From Affinundibacterium nitidum (lineage in GTDB: Bacteria; Pseudomonadota; Gammaproteobacteria; Burkholderiales; Burkholderiaceae_D): a DNA stretch of 64,000 bases. The first letter of the stretch is position 1, and each line of letters starts with the position of its first letter. The stretch spans positions 1,692,545-1,756,544 of the forward strand of contig NZ_JACOFZ010000001.1 in assembly GCF_014284155.1 (NCBI RefSeq), given 5' to 3'. Below, piece by piece: positions 11,995 to 57,775 of the stretch. Below the pieces are notes generated by a model that made no database searches, was not told the origin of the DNA, and was given only the letters and a program-made list of their open reading frames with translations. Both the position numbers and the translations under genes were made by a program.

Positions 11995-12182
11995 ACGCGC
12001 AAACAAATAAATGCGAGGCGGCCCGACCTTCGCTTTACCTGTTCATCCACATGGATGAGCACCCGAAGCTATTGTAGGCAGCCGAATCAAAGAGCGCAAG
12101 GAAATTCGGAAGCGATACAACAAGGCTTAATGATCATTGACTTCCCATTCTAGGAAATCGCTCAGACCAAAACACTCAAACT

Positions 12183-25244: not shown

Positions 25245-25577
25245 TCATTGATCGCTAGAACTAGGATGCTGTTCCTGGACAGGTGGGGGGCTGGCGGGTG
25301 TTGCGGCGCTCGTGTCAGTCACTTTCACACGAATTACAGCGTAAACAACGGCACCCAAGATATACGAGATAAGCAAAGCAACTGGGACGCCAATACCCGC
25401 CACACCGAACATCCAAGCGATAGGCGTCGCTCCCATTGAAGCAGAAACAATCAAGCCAATCAGACAAAGAAAAAAAGCGCTAGCAATAAGGACAGCGATG
25501 GTACGTGGCTTCAATACAGCACCAGCGACAATGCCAAAGATGACGATGGAAGCCCAGAATAGATAAGAGGTTGTCAT
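25245..25577 (-). CDS. Hypothetical small membrane protein
   Basis: 110 residues with three predicted membrane helices (about 5-23, 27-47 and 53-80) and a hydrophilic Pro/Ser/Thr-rich C-terminal tail. No family recognised. Composition and steady hydrophobic periodicity make it credible as a real gene, although the ribosome site is weak. Confidence 0.6.
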   Translation of the reverse strand: MTTSYLFWASIVIFGIVAGAVLKPRTIAVLIASAFFLCLIGLIVSASMGATPIAWMFGVAGIGVPVALLISYILGAVVYAVIRVKVTDTSAATPASPPPVQEQHPSSSDQ

Positions 25578-25719
25578 GATTCGTAGGTGTGCTCGAAATA
25601 TGAATTAAGTGCTCTAGTTAGGTGCATGCCATTATGCGACAGATCGCCGAAATAGGCTAATTGCAGTCATTAAGCGAATGATTTATCGACCAGTAAGTGC
25701 ATAATGACAGCCTTAACTC

Positions 25720-26124
25720 TTATGCTTCGCTTGGCGCAGTAGTCATACAAAATAATCCCCAGCCATGACCATCAAGGTCAACGAAACTATGCGAATACAT
25801 AAAGCCTAGGTCTTCCGCTTTATCATACGTTGAACCACCTGCCGCAAGTGCCCTGGCCACTAAACCGTCTACTTCCTCCCGATTCTCGCAGCAAAGATTG
25901 ATCAACATTTCGACAGCTTGGCTCGTATCGCAAATCGCTTTTGGCGTGAAGTCACGAAATCTTTCGCGGGTGCACAACATCACAAAAATCGAATCACTAA
26001 TCACAATACAAGCGCCACTCTCGCTAGCGAATTGCGGGTTATCAGCAAACCCCAATGCCTTAAAAAAGGCGAGCGATTTACTGAGGTCTGCTACTGGAAG
26101 GTTGAGATAAATCTGTTTGCTCAT
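25720..26124 (-). CDS. VOC (glyoxalase/bleomycin-resistance fold) family protein
   Basis: 134 residues with the paired beta-alpha-beta-beta-beta modules of the vicinal oxygen chelate superfamily: IYLNLPVADLSKSLAFFKALGF at the N-terminus and FVDLDGHGWGLFCM at the C-terminus. Members are dioxygenases, isomerases, glutathione transferases or binding proteins; the exact role is open. GAAGGA lies seven bases before the ATG at 26124, which is why that start is preferred over the ATG five codons upstream. Confidence 0.85.
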   Translation of the reverse strand: MSKQIYLNLPVADLSKSLAFFKALGFADNPQFASESGACIVISDSIFVMLCTRERFRDFTPKAICDTSQAVEMLINLCCENREEVDGLVARALAAGGSTYDKAEDLGFMYSHSFVDLDGHGWGLFCMTTAPSEA

Positions 26125-26233
26125 GCTGTTATCCTTCATTTTTTAATGTGTTACACGCCTCGCTGCACCTAGCACATCACCTCAACAATACCCTCTCAAT
26201 ACTAGGCGATGATCGCAGCGTATCATACCAGCC

Positions 26234-26623
26234 TCAAAACCAATAATCTGCCACGCAACGACCATCGCGCGGCAAGTCGTCGAAAGTAACAAGGCCATCA
26301 AAGTGATCGATAGGAATCTGGGCCACGGTATCGGGCTCAGCCAAACGCAAATTAACCGCGATTCTCCGTCTGCCATTGTCTTCGAGTCGTTTGCCCCTCC
26401 AGAATGCCATACAGCCACAGGTTGGGCAAAAGTGAAACTCAAGCGCACTGCCTCTCGCAAAGGCTTTCGTCACACCTGAGACCTTAATCCCAAAGCCCTC
26501 GTAGTCGTAAGCCCAAAGCACGCCATAACGGCGGCACGCTGTGCAATTGCAAGCCGTAGCACCATCGGGCTCACCGGAGAAGGTCCAATGTACCGCCCCA
26601 CAAAGGCATTTTCCTTCAAGCAT
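26234..26623 (-). CDS. GFA family (Mss4-like zinc fold) protein
   Basis: 129 residues. Zinc-ligand cysteines are visible as CLCG, then CNCTAC and CPTCGC, the pattern of the glutathione-dependent formaldehyde-activating (GFA) family. Most GFA proteins are of unknown reaction and the name should not be taken as proof of formaldehyde metabolism. The ATG at 26623 has AAAGGA seven bases upstream and starts directly at the domain. Confidence 0.85.
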   Translation of the reverse strand: MLEGKCLCGAVHWTFSGEPDGATACNCTACRRYGVLWAYDYEGFGIKVSGVTKAFARGSALEFHFCPTCGCMAFWRGKRLEDNGRRRIAVNLRLAEPDTVAQIPIDHFDGLVTFDDLPRDGRCVADYWF

Positions 26624-26689
26624 GATTAGATCCTTTGCAAAGAATGTCCAACAACTAAGCCGGCCAAGTCGCTTGAGCAAAAAAGTATG

Positions 26690-27178
26690 TCAATCACGAG
26701 AGCGATGCAGGCGCACAAGTTTACCCATTAGCGCAAAGGCTTGTAGCAGCCCTGGCTTCGCAATTGAACTCTTACGATGCTCGCGCTCTCCACAGATGCA
26801 AACATCCAATTCCCACGCCGCGGGCTGAGCATCGTCGACCTTCAGAATACGTTGAAGCCGCAACGCCGAATCTTTACCAAGTGCCTCTACCGTTTTACCA
26901 CGTGCGAATACCGCACCAGGCGTACATTCGACCATCTTACCAAGCACAGCGAGCTCGACGAAGCCTGGCAGTACAGCGCCGTTTTTTAAGGTATATGTAG
27001 CGCGAACTAAATAACTTGCATATTCACCCAGCGATGGACCAGCTTCATATGCACCAACATAAGACTCATCCGCTTGGGGCGATACAGCCTCACCCGAATT
27101 CAGATATCGCCAAACGGCCGTCTGCTGAAAATCGCTTTCGGTAAGCTGGTAAGCAGGCATTTCGAGATGGGGCTTCAT
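26690..27178 (-). CDS. Hypothetical protein, 162 residues
   Basis: I do not recognise a family. It is soluble with alternating strand and helix segments, no signal peptide and a CICGE motif near residue 130. It ends 67 bases before the GFA gene start on the same strand and may be co-transcribed with it. GTTAG abuts the ATG; no strong ribosome site is visible apart from AGGAG at 27186-27190. Confidence 0.6.
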   Translation of the reverse strand: MKPHLEMPAYQLTESDFQQTAVWRYLNSGEAVSPQADESYVGAYEAGPSLGEYASYLVRATYTLKNGAVLPGFVELAVLGKMVECTPGAVFARGKTVEALGKDSALRLQRILKVDDAQPAAWELDVCICGEREHRKSSIAKPGLLQAFALMGKLVRLHRSRD

Positions 27179-27291
27179 CTAACTCCTAAACCGAAGACGA
27201 CTGTTCATGAAGATAAAACAGTCAAATGCTGTCGACATACACAGATAATATAGCTTAAAACGCCAACCTAAATCGATCTACAAACCTAATT

Positions 27292-27768
27292 CTATTTGGA
27301 TCTAGCTTTAAAGAATAGACGATCCAAAAAGTTAGCGCCAAAGACGTATGATCCAACCGAGCTAACAGAGGTGCAGCCAAATGCCAACCAAAAAAATATC
27401 CATGGCGAGAGCCAAGTTACTCGTTTAAATATCAACAGCAAGAGCACGGTACTAGCGAATAGGCCAATAAGGCCGCCAGCTATTGCGTCCAACACTTTAG
27501 TACCATCCGATCGATCCGCACTCGATGTCGAAATGTGTTGGTCGAATTGATTACTTTCTTCAGCTTGACGAGCAGCAATTTTCTCAACGATATTCACCTC
27601 GCGAGGAGTGCTCCTTCTGATTTCCTTATTTAAGCTCGCAATTTTCTCTTCCGAAAATAGAAATTCAGAAGGAAGAATTTCCCCGCAATATAAACAGTGT
27701 TTAATTGCTCGGTTTAGAACAATTTGATCACACGCGGTGCATGTAAATTTTGGATGAGGAACGGCCAT
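27292..27768 (-). CDS. Zinc-ribbon membrane protein, unknown
   Basis: 158 residues. The N-terminus holds a zinc ribbon with CTAC and CLYC pairs (about residues 10-33). A charged helical linker with the segment RRSTPREVN follows, and then two membrane helices (about 90-110 and 118-138). This is a common layout for bacterial proteins of unknown function. No partner gene is evident. Confidence 0.6.
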   Translation of the reverse strand: MAVPHPKFTCTACDQIVLNRAIKHCLYCGEILPSEFLFSEEKIASLNKEIRRSTPREVNIVEKIAARQAEESNQFDQHISTSSADRSDGTKVLDAIAGGLIGLFASTVLLLLIFKRVTWLSPWIFFWLAFGCTSVSSVGSYVFGANFLDRLFFKARSK

Positions 27769-27906
27769 ACGAATGCAACATTAAATGATGGCAATAGGGA
27801 AGGTTCAACAGTCTTCAAAGTCCTCATCTGCGCTAGGAAACGGGACAAGCCTTTTCTAAAATCAACTGAAATATCTAGTACCAATTATGGTAAGCCATTT
27901 TGTGAC

Positions 27907-28170
27907 TTATTGGATGTCTTGAATAGAGAAAACACGATCATCGAATTTTAAAATACTCCTTATCAATTTCGAATGCATTCCTATATTCGGCACGAGCAGG
28001 CGGGCAAATCCATCCTTATACACCGTCTTCCATAAACCTTCCGCATGCCGTTCAAGAACATGAGCGGCCTCGTTCAAAATTGCGCTTAGACGAATAGTTG
28101 TTTGTGGATCAGGTTTGAGAGGGTAAGTTGGCGCACCATAATTTTCTAAGTTCGGTTCTTCAACACTCAT
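27907..28170 (-). CDS. Hypothetical protein, 87 residues
   Basis: No family recognised. It is a small soluble protein predicted mostly helical. The ATG lies directly after one end of a dispersed repeat (28177-28325) that recurs beside the IS91 transposase, so the gene could have arrived with or next to a mobile unit. Confidence 0.45.
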   Translation of the reverse strand: MSVEEPNLENYGAPTYPLKPDPQTTIRLSAILNEAAHVLERHAEGLWKTVYKDGFARLLVPNIGMHSKLIRSILKFDDRVFSIQDIQ

Positions 28171-28176
28171 GGATGA

Positions 28177-28325
28177 CCAACTTGTTTTAAAGCGAAAGAA
28201 ACCTAAATTAATACATTATCAATTCATCATCAACAAAGTTCCAAACTTCTCAAGACCCTCGTTGGGCCTAGCTAAAGTTAGTTATAACCACTGAATAATA
28301 GGTAAACCAGAGAGAACCATCCCCT
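28177..28325 (-). repeat. Dispersed repeat copy A (about 150 bases; second copy at 55753-55905)
   Basis: Read side by side with 55753-55905, the first 110 bases align without gaps at roughly three matches in four and include the shared block CAAAGTTCCAA. Similarity stops abruptly at CAAC (28178). Minus-strand features GCCCAAC and GTTGGTC near the two ends resemble the outer boxes of an integron attC site. The rest of the gene-free stretch 28171-28486 holds only a doubtful TTG-started frame (28278-28481). Confidence 0.55.
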
Positions 28326-52565: not shown

Positions 52566-52649
52566 GCTCAACTTTAAGCTTGAATTGAGTGGCTCAAGCC
52601 AGCGCATCCATTGGAACGAAGTGTCGCGAACTCGAATGCCACGTTAGAC
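52566..52649 (-). repeat. attC-like recombination site 3 (end of cassette 3)
   Basis: Minus strand: begins GTCTAAC (matches RYYYAAC) and ends GTTGAGC (matches GTTRRRY), 84 bases. The segments GTGGC and GCCAC can pair inside. The outer boxes pair imperfectly, so the site is less certain than site 1. The TAA of the first box is the stop codon of the cassette 3 gene. Confidence 0.55.
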
Positions 52650-53111
52650 GCGCGTTCGAACAGCAGGTCGATTAAGTAATAATATTACCAAGCACGCTAG
52701 CGCTACAGCATTTACCGCGACATATTGTTGGCCATGAACGGCGCCGTGCGAAACCATAAAATCAATCCCAATACTGAACTCGTAAAGTGCCGAGGCACTG
52801 CCCTTGTCCGACATATCAGCCCCCAAGGGCACAAACACACCCAATCCCGGCCGATACAAGAGAGTGCCGACAAAGAAGACTGGTATTTGTAAAAGTTGAA
52901 CAACAATCGAACCAGACCAGGCGAATTTACTGGCTCGCAACAGCGCAATACCTGCCAATAGGCCCAGGGTTCCAAGTGCGATAAGCGCACCCGTTCTAAG
53001 AGTAACAGCACCCGTGCCATCCGATGAGAAAAAGGCCGCAGTTATATCGCCAAGCATGAACACGCCTGAGAGTATTTCGAGCCAGGCGACCATACGAATC
53101 GGTTTATTCAT
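52644..53111 (-). CDS. Cassette 3: small integral membrane protein
   Basis: 155 residues with four predicted membrane helices (about 6-24, 38-58, 66-88 and 125-145). No family recognised. The ATG at 53111 lies seven bases beyond attC-like site 2 and its stop codon lies in the first box of attC-like site 3, the tight packing typical of an integron gene cassette. Longer upstream codons fall inside the attC site and are not used. Confidence 0.6.
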   Translation of the reverse strand: MNKPIRMVAWLEILSGVFMLGDITAAFFSSDGTGAVTLRTGALIALGTLGLLAGIALLRASKFAWSGSIVVQLLQIPVFFVGTLLYRPGLGVFVPLGADMSDKGSASALYEFSIGIDFMVSHGAVHGQQYVAVNAVALACLVILLLNRPAVRTRV

Positions 53112-53117
53112 GAGGAT

Positions 53118-53174
53118 GTTTAATGTTGGAGGTACGGGGCTGCGGCGCGACAGCAATTGACCGAGGGGTTAGGC
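53118..53174 (-). repeat. attC-like recombination site 2 (end of cassette 2)
   Basis: Minus strand: begins GCCTAACCCCTCGGTCAA, the usual start of attC sites, and ends ATTAAAC, which is one base from GTTRRRY. Length 57 bases, at the short end of the attC range. The TAA inside the first box is the stop codon of the cassette 2 gene. Confidence 0.65.
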
Positions 53175-53723
53175 CACATTCAGCGCTCGCTGTGTGGCTG
53201 CTGAAATTTGTACGCAGTTCGGAGACTCGACTTCGCGCTGCAATGCGAGTTGAGCGTGCTGCGTGAGTGGCGACCCCGAAGACAAGAGAGCCGTTGGGTT
53301 GTCCATGGAGGCGAACCAACTGAGCCCTTCGTTGGTTATGCACTGAAGCATGAGGTCCGCACATCGCTTCCAGCTAACTTCGTCCGCAGTGAAGTCGAAA
53401 TTTTGGAGCCTGAGACCGGGCGACTCCCGATCAGGAATCCCGTCAGTGCATGGACCATTTAGACCGGCTGCAGGAAACTCGTCAGACCTGACGCGCAAAC
53501 CAAAATGGATTCGGAACGAGGCAGCAAAAGTGTACTTGTGGACGTGAACGAACTCGATGACGTACGGACCAGTGCGGGTGAAGAATGTGGGCTTTGTGCA
53601 CTGGAACCCAAATGGCTTAAGCATCCCTGCAAGGAGGCGCAACACCTTGTGCGCATCGCGTGACTCCTGCCTCTTCTCAGGGGAGCTAGGGAAAGCCGGG
53701 CGTGACATCAGATGTTCGTTCAT
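53169..53723 (-). CDS. Cassette 2: DUF4304-like hypothetical protein
   Basis: 184 residues, soluble. The segment GMLKPFGFQCTKPTFFTRTGPYVIEFVHVHK followed by FRIHFGLRV resembles DUF4304 domains, a family of unknown function common in cassettes and toxin-immunity loci. The ATG at 53723 follows attC-like site 1 by three bases; TTAGG of the attC box is the only sequence that could act as ribosome site. The stop codon is in attC-like site 2. Confidence 0.6.
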   Translation of the reverse strand: MNEHLMSRPAFPSSPEKRQESRDAHKVLRLLAGMLKPFGFQCTKPTFFTRTGPYVIEFVHVHKYTFAASFRIHFGLRVRSDEFPAAGLNGPCTDGIPDRESPGLRLQNFDFTADEVSWKRCADLMLQCITNEGLSWFASMDNPTALLSSGSPLTQHAQLALQREVESPNCVQISAATQRALNVA

Positions 53724-53726
53724 GCG

Positions 53727-53813
53727 GCCTAACGCTGATTTGAAAGGCGCGCGCCAATCAGTAAAATTTAAAAAACGCATATTCGCGGGTCATTTTCGAA
53801 AGCCATGTTAGGT
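53727..53813 (-). repeat. attC recombination site 1 (end of cassette 1)
   Basis: Minus strand: ACCTAAC at one end and GTTAGGC at the other, both matching the attC outer-box consensus, 87 bases apart. The inner boxes TTTCGAAA and TTTGAAA can pair with one unpaired base, the hallmark that lets the integrase choose the strand. The TAA of ACCTAAC is the stop codon of the cassette 1 gene. This is the clearest site of the array. Confidence 0.75.
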
Positions 53814-54203
53814 TTTAGTGGCACCACGACCGAGCTTCCTATTAGCACGCACAAACTCACTTACCGAGATAATCATTAAATACCATCCATAAGCGATGAA
53901 TGCTCCAAATAGCCAGAATGAGATTTGATCCGATTCGACAGTGAAACTTCCATCTTCCATCTCTTCAACAAAAAGCATTTTAGGATTGGAAAACGATAGA
54001 GGAATTAAAAGATAACTTTGACTTTGTATTTCCCAACCTACAAATGATCCACCAATTGCTAGCGGTAGATAGTTCTGCATATGCGCTCTTGCCGCATCTT
54101 CCCCTTTCCAAGGGCTAACAACGTTACGCGTGGAATTTACAAGGGCAATTAGTGCCAAAAACATCAATAGCAATTTAAAAAAGCTGATTAATCTTCGCTT
54201 CAT
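53808..54203 (-). CDS. Cassette 1: small membrane protein
   Basis: 131 residues with an N-terminal helix (about 7-23) and a second near the C-terminus (about 93-113), enclosing a soluble or periplasmic region. No family recognised. The ATG at 54203 is seven bases from the end of attC-like site 0 and the stop codon is inside attC site 1. It was probably acquired as a mobile cassette. Confidence 0.6.
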   Translation of the reverse strand: MKRRLISFFKLLLMFLALIALVNSTRNVVSPWKGEDAARAHMQNYLPLAIGGSFVGWEIQSQSYLLIPLSFSNPKMLFVEEMEDGSFTVESDQISFWLFGAFIAYGWYLMIISVSEFVRANRKLGRGATKT

Positions 54204-54209
54204 TTAAAA

Positions 54210-54284
54210 ACCTAACGTTTTAGTTGTGCGGCACCCCGAAGGGGGAACCGCGTAGCGGTGTCCGCTACCAATGCCTTGTTGCAC
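54210..54284 (-). repeat. attC-like recombination site 0 (end of the IS91-bearing unit)
   Basis: Minus strand: begins GTGCAAC and ends GTTAGGT (matches GTTRRRY), 75 bases, with strong internal hairpins (CCCCTTCGGGG and TAGCGGACACCGCTA). The first box has one mismatch to RYYYAAC but is the exact complement of GTTGCAC at 55753-55759, the expected start of its own cassette. Confidence 0.6.
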
Positions 54285-54505
54285 GGCGCGTCTACAGCTG
54301 GTTGTAAATTAGTTATGGAGATTTTAAGAGTTATCAGAACGAGAAGCAATCTGATTTATTCTTAAAATTAAAAAAATGTTGACGACAAAGTGGGCGATAG
54401 TGGGCGATAGTTGGCGAGCATTGGAACAATATTATCTGATGACAATGAAAACGCGATAAACGTGGAAGTTGAGACGAGTTGAGACAAGCACGAATCAACA
54501 ATGTG
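54285..54505. repeat. Region 3' of the IS91 transposase with tandem 10-mers
   Basis: AT-rich. It holds two adjacent copies of TGGGCGATAG (54391-54410) plus a partial third, and two copies of GTTGAGACRA (54468-54487). These may belong to a terminal region of the IS91-family element. No gene recognised. Confidence 0.4.
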
Positions 54506-55681
54506 CTACACATGTTGACCTCCTAATGGGCGCGGTCGTGGTGGATCATGATGCGGAGCGATGTTACGGACATGGCTGATATGCGCGCCGCAAACAGTAC
54601 ACACATGCGCGGTGGGTCGCGTGACGTGTTGCGCGTAATACGCTTGCCACGTCAATGGTTCAATCTTGGTGATGGGCGCTTGACGGAACACGGTACGTGC
54701 CAAATTCAATCGTGCTGTTTTACGCGGCGCGTACAAACCATAACTGCGCACCGTGTGTTTGCCGGGTTCGGGTACGTGTTGCAACACCAGTTTCAGAAAA
54801 CGTTCCGGCGTGTGAGCCGCGCAAACCGAGCGATACGCAGTAGCGCTATCACGATGCGGTGTATACGTAAAATTAACCTGCTGATTCGTGAGCCGAATCT
54901 GACCATCATGCAATGGACCTCCCCGTACGTAGCGCGCTAAATACTGCACCAAGCCCTGACCGTGATCGTAACGGGTTTCAATACGCACATTCCACTTCTT
55001 CCGAAACAGATGGTTCAAGCACGAATGCATGCGCTCAGGACTCACATCATCGGGTAGGCGCAACGTTTGCCGCTCGATGGCACGTCGCAACAACGCGAGC
55101 AATTTACCGCGAAATTTAGCCATCAGTACCCGTGCAGGTAACAGACAACTGCCTTTGGGGTGCTGCCAACCAGCATCAGAGATACCACCATCAGTGAGCA
55201 AACAATGCAAGTGCGGATGCAAAGAGAGGGAGCGCCCCCAAGTATGCAGTGACAAGACATAGCCCGGTTCAGCACCAGCAAGTCGTCGCTCATCGTTGAG
55301 TAATTCTTGCAGACATTGACTAGCGCACTGAAACAGCAATTCCATCATCGCGGCGGTATTGAGTTGCCACAGCGAGTTCAATTCATGGGGGATGGTAAAG
55401 ATGATGTGATGGTGCGGGCAATGCAGTAAGCGCTCGCGCTGTTGCTGCAACCAACGCGCCATTTGCAGGCCTTTACATTGTGGACAACTACGATGCTTAC
55501 AGGAGTTATACCAGACCCGTTCAACATGGCCTTGAGGGCAAGCCTGCACATGGCCACCTAATGCAGCAGTACGACAGCGAGAAAGTTTATTCGCAGCCCG
55601 ATACCAATGCGGCGGTAAGCGTTCAGTATCAGCCAACTGTGAGAAATGGCGCTGAAAAAGACGCTGCAATGTACTGGCCAT
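54506..55681 (-). mobile_element. IS91-family (Y2 rolling-circle) transposase
   Basis: 391 residues, apparently intact. The N-terminal zinc-binding region has CKHRSCPQC and CPHHHI. The HUH nuclease motif is LHPHLHCLLTDGG, and the tyrosine pair is in YLARYVRGG (Y-x3-Y). Such enzymes move DNA by single-strand rolling-circle transposition and can mobilise adjacent genes. The ATG has a GAGAGGTGACC leader. The gene lies inside a unit bounded by GTTGCAC and GTGCAAC, looking like an integron cassette, between glmS and cassette 1. Element ends were not firmly located. Confidence 0.88.
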
Positions 55682-55752
55682 TGGTCACCTCTCTTAACGC
55701 AAAGAACCAGTCAGCCGGCGCTTTACGCGTCCTCCCGCGCAGCGGGACTAGT

Positions 55753-55905
55753 GCAACTTGTTTTAAAGTGAAAGAAACCGAAGTTAACACATTATTGATT
55801 TTTCATAAACAAAGTTCCAAGCCTCTCAAAACCCGCGCCAGGCCTTGCTCCTTTTTGTTATACCTGCCTCACAAAAGGTATAACAGAGGGAACATCAAAG
55901 CTTGC
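55753..55905 (-). repeat. Dispersed repeat copy B (second copy of 28177-28325)
   Basis: Aligns with copy A over about 110 bases without gaps and then loosely to about 55905. It includes the hairpin GTTATACCT/AGGTATAAC in the part nearest glmS. Similarity to copy A ends exactly at GTTG on the minus strand, after which the sequence leads into the IS91 unit. The rest of 55682-55945 has no gene. Confidence 0.55.
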
Positions 55906-55945: not shown

Positions 55946-57775
55946 TTATTCGACTGTAACGCTCTTCGCCAAATTTCGAGGCTTGTCGACGTCGGTGCCG
56001 CGCGCTAAAGCCGTGTGATACGCCAGTAATTGCAATGGCACCGTGTGTAAGATCGGTGACAGCATGCCGTAGTGTTCTGGTAGGCGAATCACATGCACGC
56101 CTTCGCTTGGGGCGATGCGGGAGTCGGCGTCGGCGAAGACGTAAAGCTCACCGCCGCGAGCACGAACTTCTTGCATGTTCGATTTGAGTTTTTCGATGAG
56201 TGTGTCGTTCGGTGCAACGGTCACTACTGGCATGTCTTTGGTGACCAATGCGAGTGGGCCGTGCTTGAGTTCGCCTGCTGGGTAAGCTTCGGCGTGGATG
56301 TAGGAAATCTCTTTGAGCTTTAATGCACCTTCGAGTGCGATGGGGTAATGCAGGCCGCGGCCTAAGAACAAGGCATTTTCTTTACGCGCAAATTCATCTG
56401 CCCAGGCGATGATTTGAGGTTCGAGTGCGAGCACGGCGGTGATGGCGACTGGCAAATGACGAAGTGCTTTGATGTGATCTTGTTCTTGCGTTTCGCTCAA
56501 ACGACCTTTGCTTTGCGCGAGTGTCAGTGCCAACAAAAATAAGGCTGCGAGTTGCGTGGTGAAGGCTTTGGTCGATGCCACGCCGACTTCCACACCGGCA
56601 CGTGTGATATAGGCCAGCTCGCATTCACGCACCATGGCGCTGGTCGAGACATTGCAGATCGTTAGGCTATGCGGCATGCCAAGTTCGCGTGCGTGTTTCA
56701 GTGCAGCTAAAGTGTCTGCCGTTTCGCCACTTTGTGAAATAGTGACCACCAAACTCTTAGGATTCGGCACGCTGTCGCGATAGCGGTATTCGCTCGCGAT
56801 TTCCACATTCACTGGAATTTTGGCGATGGACTCTATCCAATATTTTGCCGTCATGCCAGCGTAGTAGCTGGTACCGCACGCGAGGATTAAGACGTTATCG
56901 ATCTCTTGAAACACGCGATAGGCTTTGTCACCAAACAGCTCGGGCATGATATTCGTGATGCCTTCTAAGGTATCGCCCAAAGCGCGTGCTTGTTCGAAAA
57001 TTTCTTTTTGCATGTAGTGGCGATAGGGACCCAACTCTGCCGCACCGGTGTGCGCATGCACGGTACGCACTTCACGTTCAACTTGTTTGCCATTCACATC
57101 CGCGATCCACACGCGTTGCAATTGCAAATCAACGACGTCACCTTCTTCGAGATAAATGATTTGATCTGTGGTGCCTGCTAACGCCATCGCATCAGAAGCG
57201 AGGAAGTTTTCACCTTTGCCGATGCCAACGATTAAGGGGGAGCCTTGACGCGCGCCGACCACACGATGTGGCTCGTCGCGGCAGAAAACGGCAATCGCAT
57301 AGGCACCGGTTAAGCGCTTCACCGCTTGTTGCACAGTGTCGAATAAATCACCGTTATATAAATGGTCGACCAAATGCGCGATGACTTCGGTGTCGGTTTG
57401 GCTTTCAAACACATAGCCCGCTTGCGTCAACTCGGCACGTAGTTCTTCGTGATTTTCGATAATGCCGTTATGCACGAGGGCGATGCGAGCGTTGTCGCCA
57501 TTGCGAGAAAAGTGAGGGTGCGCATTGGCAGACGACGGTGCACCATGCGTGGCCCAACGCGTATGAGCAATGCCCGTAAAGCCGCTCAAGCCTGTTTGTT
57601 CGACTTGCGCTTGCAACTCGGCCACACGTGAAGTACTACGTGAGCGCTGCAGTTTGCCATCGACATGCAAAGCCACGCCGCAGGAGTCATAGCCACGGTA
57701 TTCAAGGCGTTTTAGGCCTTCTAACAAAATAGGAGTGATGTTGCGTTGTGCTACTGCGCCGACGATGCCACACAT
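55946..57775 (-). CDS. glmS: Glutamine-fructose-6-phosphate aminotransferase
   Basis: 609 residues. The N-terminal class II glutaminase domain begins [11 protein letters not shown], with the catalytic Cys as residue 2. Two SIS isomerase domains follow (about 285-420 and 455-595), and the C-terminus [11 protein letters not shown] is the conserved end in which Tn7-type elements find their target. It makes glucosamine-6-phosphate for peptidoglycan and lipopolysaccharide. It is transcribed alone on the minus strand; the partner glmU is encoded at 59261. The mobile cassette cluster begins directly after its stop codon. Confidence 0.97.

Follow-up and report, generated by a model that had tools for sequence, protein, structure and literature searches.

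Cassette arrays with several attC sites and no integrase gene nearby form a class of their own in IntegronFinder, the CALIN (cluster of attC sites lacking integron-integrases). According to the part of the IntegronFinder 2 description concerned with attI, these sites are poorly described outside class 1 and are not detected (PMC9024848). Arrays bearing an attI, such as the one described here beside glmS in a 64,000-nucleotide stretch of Affinundibacterium nitidum DNA (hereafter the window), would therefore be classed as CALIN. In the sections of a Xanthomonas study that treat CALINs, these are reported to hold relatively conserved positions, which is taken as support for ancestral integron activity, and are said to be mobilizable in trans (PMC12444791). 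In both the glmS array and the Xanthomonas CALINs, arrays without an integrase keep fixed places in the chromosome from species to species; however, no attI is reported in those sections, whereas here dispersed attI sites can explain the fixed positions. Pieces of attI outside their usual place are also present in the delta-attI cassettes of class 1 and 2 integrons, which have the core AAACAAAGTTRRRY and are recombined by IntI1, and the same passages state that IntI1 can move attI pieces in systems other than ours (PMC12901181). As described there, delta-attI cassettes replace the attC behind a gene inside mobile integrons, whereas here attI fronts arrays at several chromosomal loci. Literature searches restricted to open-licence full texts showed no report of attI sites dispersed without intI.

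Compared with a CALIN, the glmS array was alike in its several attC sites and in having no integrase gene nearby, but differed from a CALIN read as attC sites only by an attI at 55886-55755 (window coordinates are used throughout). It was like a sedentary chromosomal integron in its attI, its attC sites, its chromosomal contig and its cassette proteins of unknown function; however, intI was absent and six copies of the attI core occurred in one genome. Among the parts of a complete integron, attI and attC-bearing cassettes were present and the intI gene was missing; the insertion site of the array was attI, not attG. We put at roughly 78% the probability that the array is one intI-less attI landing pad among many, at which cassettes were inserted or exchanged in trans by an integrase (IntI) from elsewhere. 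A preliminary description of the window had proposed an integrase-less, CALIN-like cluster beside glmS. Its observation was confirmed and its interpretation was partly supported: the cassettes, the lack of intI and the location stood, but the attI had been overlooked.

The cassette array behind glmS

Going away from glmS on the minus strand, the order was glmS, attI unit, and cassettes 1, 2, 3 and 4, with an attC at the end of each of the four cassettes. The chromosomal gene upstream of attI was glmS itself (55946-57775, minus strand; TIGR01135, 830 bits). Between it and cassette 1 lay the attI unit without intI (55755-55886, minus strand), which was about 130 bp long, with a degenerate LexA-like palindrome (55857-55884) at one end and a core ending AAAACAAG^TT at the other. 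The core, TTTCTTTCACTTTAAAACAAG^TT, occupied 55777-55755 on the minus strand with the crossover between 55757 and 55756, and the 21 bases before cassette 1, TTTCTTTCACTTTAAAACAAG, recurred in front of other sequences. In two other genomes of the genus (numbered with G, their contigs with C), G199:C4 and G296:C410, the same attI with a LexA-type CTG-N10-CAG palindrome adjoined the start of an intact intI. Because the core lies beside intact integrases in these relatives, the glmS element was identified as attI. Its last 37 bp were identical (37/37) to the attI beside the intact intI of G296:C410. Aligned along its full length, the unit agreed at 104 of 130 bases, with a score of 45.5 versus at most 11.0 in 500 shuffles, none of which (0/500) reached the score of the real alignment. 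The glmS palindrome had lost the CTG and CAG ends, which were kept in two of the six copies in this genome. A candidate for the cassette promoter Pc, one promoter-like match at 55820-55791, read into the array, with 0.4 such matches expected by chance. Other integrases of the genus had different attI ends, for example AAATTAAATCACG and CTATATCTAG.

The attC sites were evaluated with a covariance model, R1, built from an alignment (A1) of 33 attC sites of other genomes and including none from the window or its own genome. The stems of R1 were as expected, with 19 pairs and 84.4% of cells paired, a value reached by 0/500 shuffles; when the stem partners were slid, paired cells fell to 41.8% or less. 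When the entire window was scanned on both strands, ranks 1-4 went to exactly the four attC-like sites of the preliminary description, at identical coordinates. These were site D of cassette 1 (54210-54284, minus strand; GTGCAAC...GTTAGGT; 26.5 bits, E 0.00055), site C of cassette 2 (53727-53813, minus strand; ACCTAAC...GTTAGGC; 23.6 bits, E 0.0026), the degenerate site B of cassette 3 (53118-53174, minus strand; 22.6 bits, E 0.0047) and site A of cassette 4 (52566-52649, minus strand; GTCTAAC...GTTGAGC; 16.0 bits, E 0.16), which was weak alone. Three of the four had E < 0.005 at window scale and stood above background, where that description had named background-level scores as grounds for refutation. 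The fifth-ranked match had 14.6 bits (E 0.34), and site A was barely above background by score. Site A was accepted because of its relatives in other arrays: it resembled the R1-supported attC of an array in G166, and others. Elsewhere in the genus there were sequences matching sites A and C over most of their length and site B in its right part, some of them attC sites of R1-detected arrays. Sequences similar to site C were present in 13/44 genus genomes, its own included, the right part of site B resembled an attC in a G155 array, and two units in tandem on contig C32 of the same genome again had site D at the same junction. All four attC positions are real, and the cassettes are real gene cassettes.

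The test for circular cassettes, in which the start of a unit is the complement of its own terminal box, had been said to hold for three units and only partly for the last, and so it did. It was passed by cassettes 1-3 (GTTGCAC/GTGCAAC, GTTAGGT/ACCTAAC and GTTAGGC/GCCTAAC), and the result was partial for cassette 4 (ATTAAAC/GTCTAAC). Cassette 4 fits only partly because site B is degenerate; compared with its relative in the G155 array it was 36 bp shorter (57 vs 93 bp) and had A for G at the crossover. R1 was used in place of three simpler procedures. A box scan for RYYYAAC...GTTRRRY gave seven pairs per window strand, from which true sites were not separable from chance; a looser structure scan gave many false matches; and by a count of perfectly matching cassette edges the strands were not distinguishable in the window (4 vs 4), nor were they in several other stretches. 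When 150 of 986 candidates of the whole genome were scored with R1, at least 15 matches were obtained at E up to 1 (four each on C32, C22 and C65, three on C11). At genome scale the window positions stood out less than in the window scan, with two of them among the matches listed (site D, E 0.04; site B, E 0.3). The R1 groups on C32 and C11 sat behind attI copies and that on C22 adjoined an integrase remnant; a copy of the glmS-type attI was not found on C65, despite the R1 group there.

Cassette 1 (54216-55756, minus strand) was opened by the box GTTGCAC at 55757-55751 and consisted of attC site D and an open reading frame (ORF; 54506-55681, 391 aa) for an IS91-family transposase. The protein matched NF033538 with 343 bits against a cut-off of 125 and contained Y2_Tnp and Zn_Tnp_IS91 domains. 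It belongs to the same transposase family as IS91-family insertion sequences, but here the gene is cargo of an attC-bearing cassette. The preliminary description had counted at least three small cassettes; the three are real, but this leading cassette was missed. The other minus-strand cassettes coded for proteins of unknown function: 131 aa in cassette 2 (53733-54215; ORF 53808-54203), 184 aa from the ATG at 53723 in cassette 3 (53124-53732; ORF 53169-53723) and 155 aa in cassette 4 (52572-53123; ORF 52644-53111). The proteins of cassettes 2-4 had no family match at curated cut-offs, and PADLOC returned nothing for the four cassette proteins.

Two more copies of cassette 1, about 92% identical, lay head to tail on C32, with the joint AAAACG|TTGCAC (attC to G^TTGCAC), and in G309 the unit lay behind the attI of two complete integrons. 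Its left neighbours varied (CAAG, AACG, CTAG, CACG) and the junction was always G^TTGCAC; the constant feature is therefore G^TT. The three copies whose far end could be read finished in the same attC, followed by the G^TT of another unit. A block of cassette 3 (53733-53162) was 84% identical to a unit directly behind the gltB attI of G155; both begin at G^TTAGGC, and the match ends inside the attC. No relative was found with the same gene order without attC, the arrangement that would have marked these as ancestral chromosomal genes; cassette 3 instead recurred, with the same left edge, behind an attI elsewhere. The cassettes of the array are mobile. Partial matches to the IS91 cassette, mostly to its last 120-180 bp, were also seen in G309:C57, G219:C14, G132:C6, G260:C12, G304:C165 and on contig C43 of the same genome (152066-152733). 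Judged by its sequence, the array keeps an attI and four cassettes without intI and is not a plain CALIN.

Copies of attI in the genome and the genus

A 23-base pattern, allowing up to three mismatches, was used to search for the attI core. It was found at six places in the genome (the copy at C32:275001 with three mismatches), one of them a second site in the window at 28179-28201 on the minus strand, with one mismatch. This second core precedes six small minus-strand genes (25245-28170), among which a GFA-type match was noted, as was a Ble-like N-terminal match that barely exceeded its cut-off. In a draw of 295 genomes of the family, the core occurred in 11, namely 9/27 genomes of the genus and 2/268 others; the two matches outside the genus (L060, L061) lacked the surrounding attI sequence, and a reversed control pattern gave two matches in the same draw. 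Among 44 genus genomes the core was present in 14, at 43 places versus 4 for the control pattern, with up to nine matches in one genome. Among the genomes searched, the attI pad family was found in this genus alone.

G104 and G188 matched the core in variant form only. By coordinates, the distance between one variant, CATTTTGCACTTTAAAACAAGTT, and a complete integrase in G188:C10 was about 140 bp. A variant core CATTTTGCACTTTAAAACAAG, beside a complete integrase at G188:C10:1983-2005, was also seen in G104 and G063. The variant core of G188, G104 and G063 is possibly that of a second dispersed attI family. In G219:C92 (35-56 kb; L113/L114), six pattern matches on one strand were spread over about 20 kb and some of their upstream flanks were duplicated; local duplication therefore plays a part in the spread of attI there. 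By analogy, the ability of IntI1 to move attI pieces in other systems offers a possible route of pad multiplication.

Thirty of the 43 places, plus two more in G303 and G309, were compared in context. The 30 continuations departed from TTRRRY at no more than one position in 26 cases, although the search pattern favoured TT at the continuation and the informative part is mainly RRRY. R1 detected attC in 18 of the 30 short attI loci (E up to 1), and 17 of the 18 lay downstream of attI on its strand; long first units extended past the fetched flank in this test. A fixed left edge for the attI unit was considered and rejected, several pads having no palindrome.

The map locus is the strongest case for pads, stronger than glmS. 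(The genes map, gltB, hydrolase and phosphoglucomutase were named from translated flanks and not by family searches.) At map, attI was present in six species, with the crossover G^TT in 6/6, and the continuations were all different: TTCCCT in G155, TTATGC in G199, TTAGTC in G228, TTGGGC in G132, TTAGCA in G296 and TTGAAC in G260. The distance from the map start motif to the attI core was 261-263 bases in five species and 314 in G260. Downstream of the map pad, R1 found attC in G155, G199 and G132 (E < 0.001) and weakly in G228 (E 0.13), and none in G296 or in G260, whose stretch ends at a contig end. The map locus of G219 and others listed matched on the gene side only. Further pads lay at gltB in G155, G228, G199 and G132 (the core of the last being followed by CT), at the hydrolase gene in G199 and G155, and at the phosphoglucomutase-like gene in G132 and G260.

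A combined glmS-attI query matched 43/44 genus genomes, and the stretch following 30 of the glmS genes was compared over up to 190 bases. The attI lay directly behind glmS in the genome studied here (G000) and in G303, G132 and G219; in G309 an attI unit with the glmS spacer was found on another, short contig. From the palindrome to the glmS stop the distance was 61-62 nt in G000, G303 and G132, and the pads had five different continuations (TTGCAC, CTAGGA, TTAGTC, TTAGGT and TTGAAC). The region behind glmS also differed between most of the 30 genomes (L135-L164), a general insertion hot spot. An empty glmS site was consequently not definable.

Units recurred between pads, the TTGAAC unit at three and the IS91 cassette at two, and the TTCCCT element of G199 was 100% identical over 201 bp at an intI-linked attI and at the gltB pad. 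The TTGAAC unit is a second unit type behind attI (L053, 2935-5429; C11:1032935 onwards), whose start was also seen at two attI places of G260 and at attI in G309. In L053 it encoded a Xer-like tyrosine recombinase of 281 aa and another IS91-family transposase, and its attC was picked up by the loose scan only, not by R1. Directly at attI, G199 (in two places) and G155 had an element of about 304 bp that contains a LexA-type box and has no Rfam match, and a similar one lay behind a different attI in G300 (the loci are L074, L077, L079 and L097). At gathering scores, Rfam had no match in four loci carrying the TTCCCT element or a similar one, and its only match in the window was an nhaA-I riboswitch at 12014-12064 (47.7 bits).

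Integrase supply and competing explanations

The preliminary description had seen no integrase gene, and this was borne out for the whole genome. TIGR02249 gave seven matches, none over the family cut-off and none inside the window. The single N-terminal intI remnant, on C22, covered 59 model positions and contained a stop in its frame. It adjoins an attI resembling the AAATTAAATCACG type, in a further cassette array (C22:454-461 kb; L028/L029) with several attC matches, only this N-terminal remnant and a different attI type. Since no integrase over the cut-off was present in an assembly that is 99.69% complete (80 contigs), the pads of this strain are probably idle now; an integrase on the missing DNA is conceivable. 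In the genus, 12/44 genomes had TIGR02249 matches over the cut-off, and intact integrases were located at other loci in several pad-bearing genomes (G155, G228, G166, G260 and others).

Eight integrases served as tblastn queries to look for integrase sequence beside the pads of 29 attI loci (1.5 kb on each side, E up to 0.01; downstream, L069 and L075 are truncated at a contig end). Integron-integrase sequence was present at 3/29 loci, complete in L079 and as N-terminal fragments in L073 and L075; a fourth match, in L057, was the Xer-like recombinase of its first unit. Taken together, the sequences show attC sites, attI homology, units shared across loci and species, no intI beside most pads, and pads at orthologous loci with different continuations. 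The dispersed attI copies, the proposed landing pads, are related to the attI of the integron whose integrase is intact in G199 and G296. In ancestors of the strain, IntI proteins encoded elsewhere most likely acted on these pads in trans, inserting and exchanging cassettes. Both this recombination in trans and the present idleness of the strain's pads are what we infer. As the spacers common to several species at map and glmS suggest, intI may have been absent before the species split; if so, later changes behind attI needed an integrase from elsewhere.

Several observations weigh against trans-serviced pads. No recombination event was observed. Sites C and A were absent among the R1 genome-wide matches listed at E up to 1. 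The second attI of the window had no attC behind it, with no minus-strand R1 match at 25-28 kb at E up to 10. Perfect TTRRRY occurred in only 14/30 continuations, the left edge of the pads was variable, and no R1-supported attC lay directly at the ends of the TTGAAC unit and the TTCCCT element. At glmS the crossover of relatives had decayed, with A in place of G in G132 and G219 and CT in place of TT in G303; no R1 attC was found in the fetched pad stretches of G132, G303 and G309, two of which end at contig ends, and recognisable units were seen only in G000, G309 and perhaps G219. Different first units could partly stem from lost leading cassettes of one ancestral array; this account still needs precise joins at attI without intI. 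Finally, intI fragments were kept at two pads (G219:C13 and G260:C84), so that loss of intI in place happened at some pads.

These fragments also favour the best-surviving alternative, that several complete integrons once sat at glmS, gltB, map and elsewhere and left the pads as relics, intI having decayed at each after cassettes had been captured in cis. The palindrome-bearing pads reach about to the intI leader, and predicted inactive integrases are common in Xanthomonas according to the sections consulted (PMC12444791). However, 26/29 pads had no integron-integrase sequence in the 1.5 kb upstream, and at map five of six species shared the spacer within 2 nt but not the continuation; we consider this explanation unlikely. 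Much less probable is a plain CALIN, with cassettes at a non-att site (attG) or left by a rearranged larger integron and no attI. More than two attC sites and no integrase over the cut-off agree with it, but about 130 bp homologous to an intI-linked attI precede cassette 1, exactly to the G^TT crossover. IS91-family elements favour CAAG or GAAC targets and the attI ends in CAAG, but an ordinary IS91 insertion at that target inside attI, in place of a first cassette, is scarcely credible, as the tetranucleotide before the unit is not constant while its G^TTGCAC joint is, and as all three far ends read pass from one attC to the G^TT of another unit. The repeated motif as an IS91 target or end was likewise rejected, since different sequences follow at G^TT and the motif adjoins intact intI in G199 and G296.

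Meaning for integrase-less arrays

In its textbook form an integron pairs a single attI with a single intI. The attI described here is not tied to intI and is repeated in the genome, and several species keep it at the same loci while the sequence that follows it changes. An IS91-family transposase gene was moreover shown to travel as a cassette. By analogy, dispersed attI pads would explain the conserved CALIN positions of Xanthomonas. We lean towards the wider view of a distributed integron, in which attI has multiplied in this genus as stable intI-less pads by housekeeping genes, a small number of integrases, or passing ones, serve these pads in trans, and many CALINs of other bacteria may likewise hide an attI for which current software does not search. 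The finding offers a testable answer to why integrase-less arrays hold fixed chromosomal places, and attI should be looked for at CALINs.

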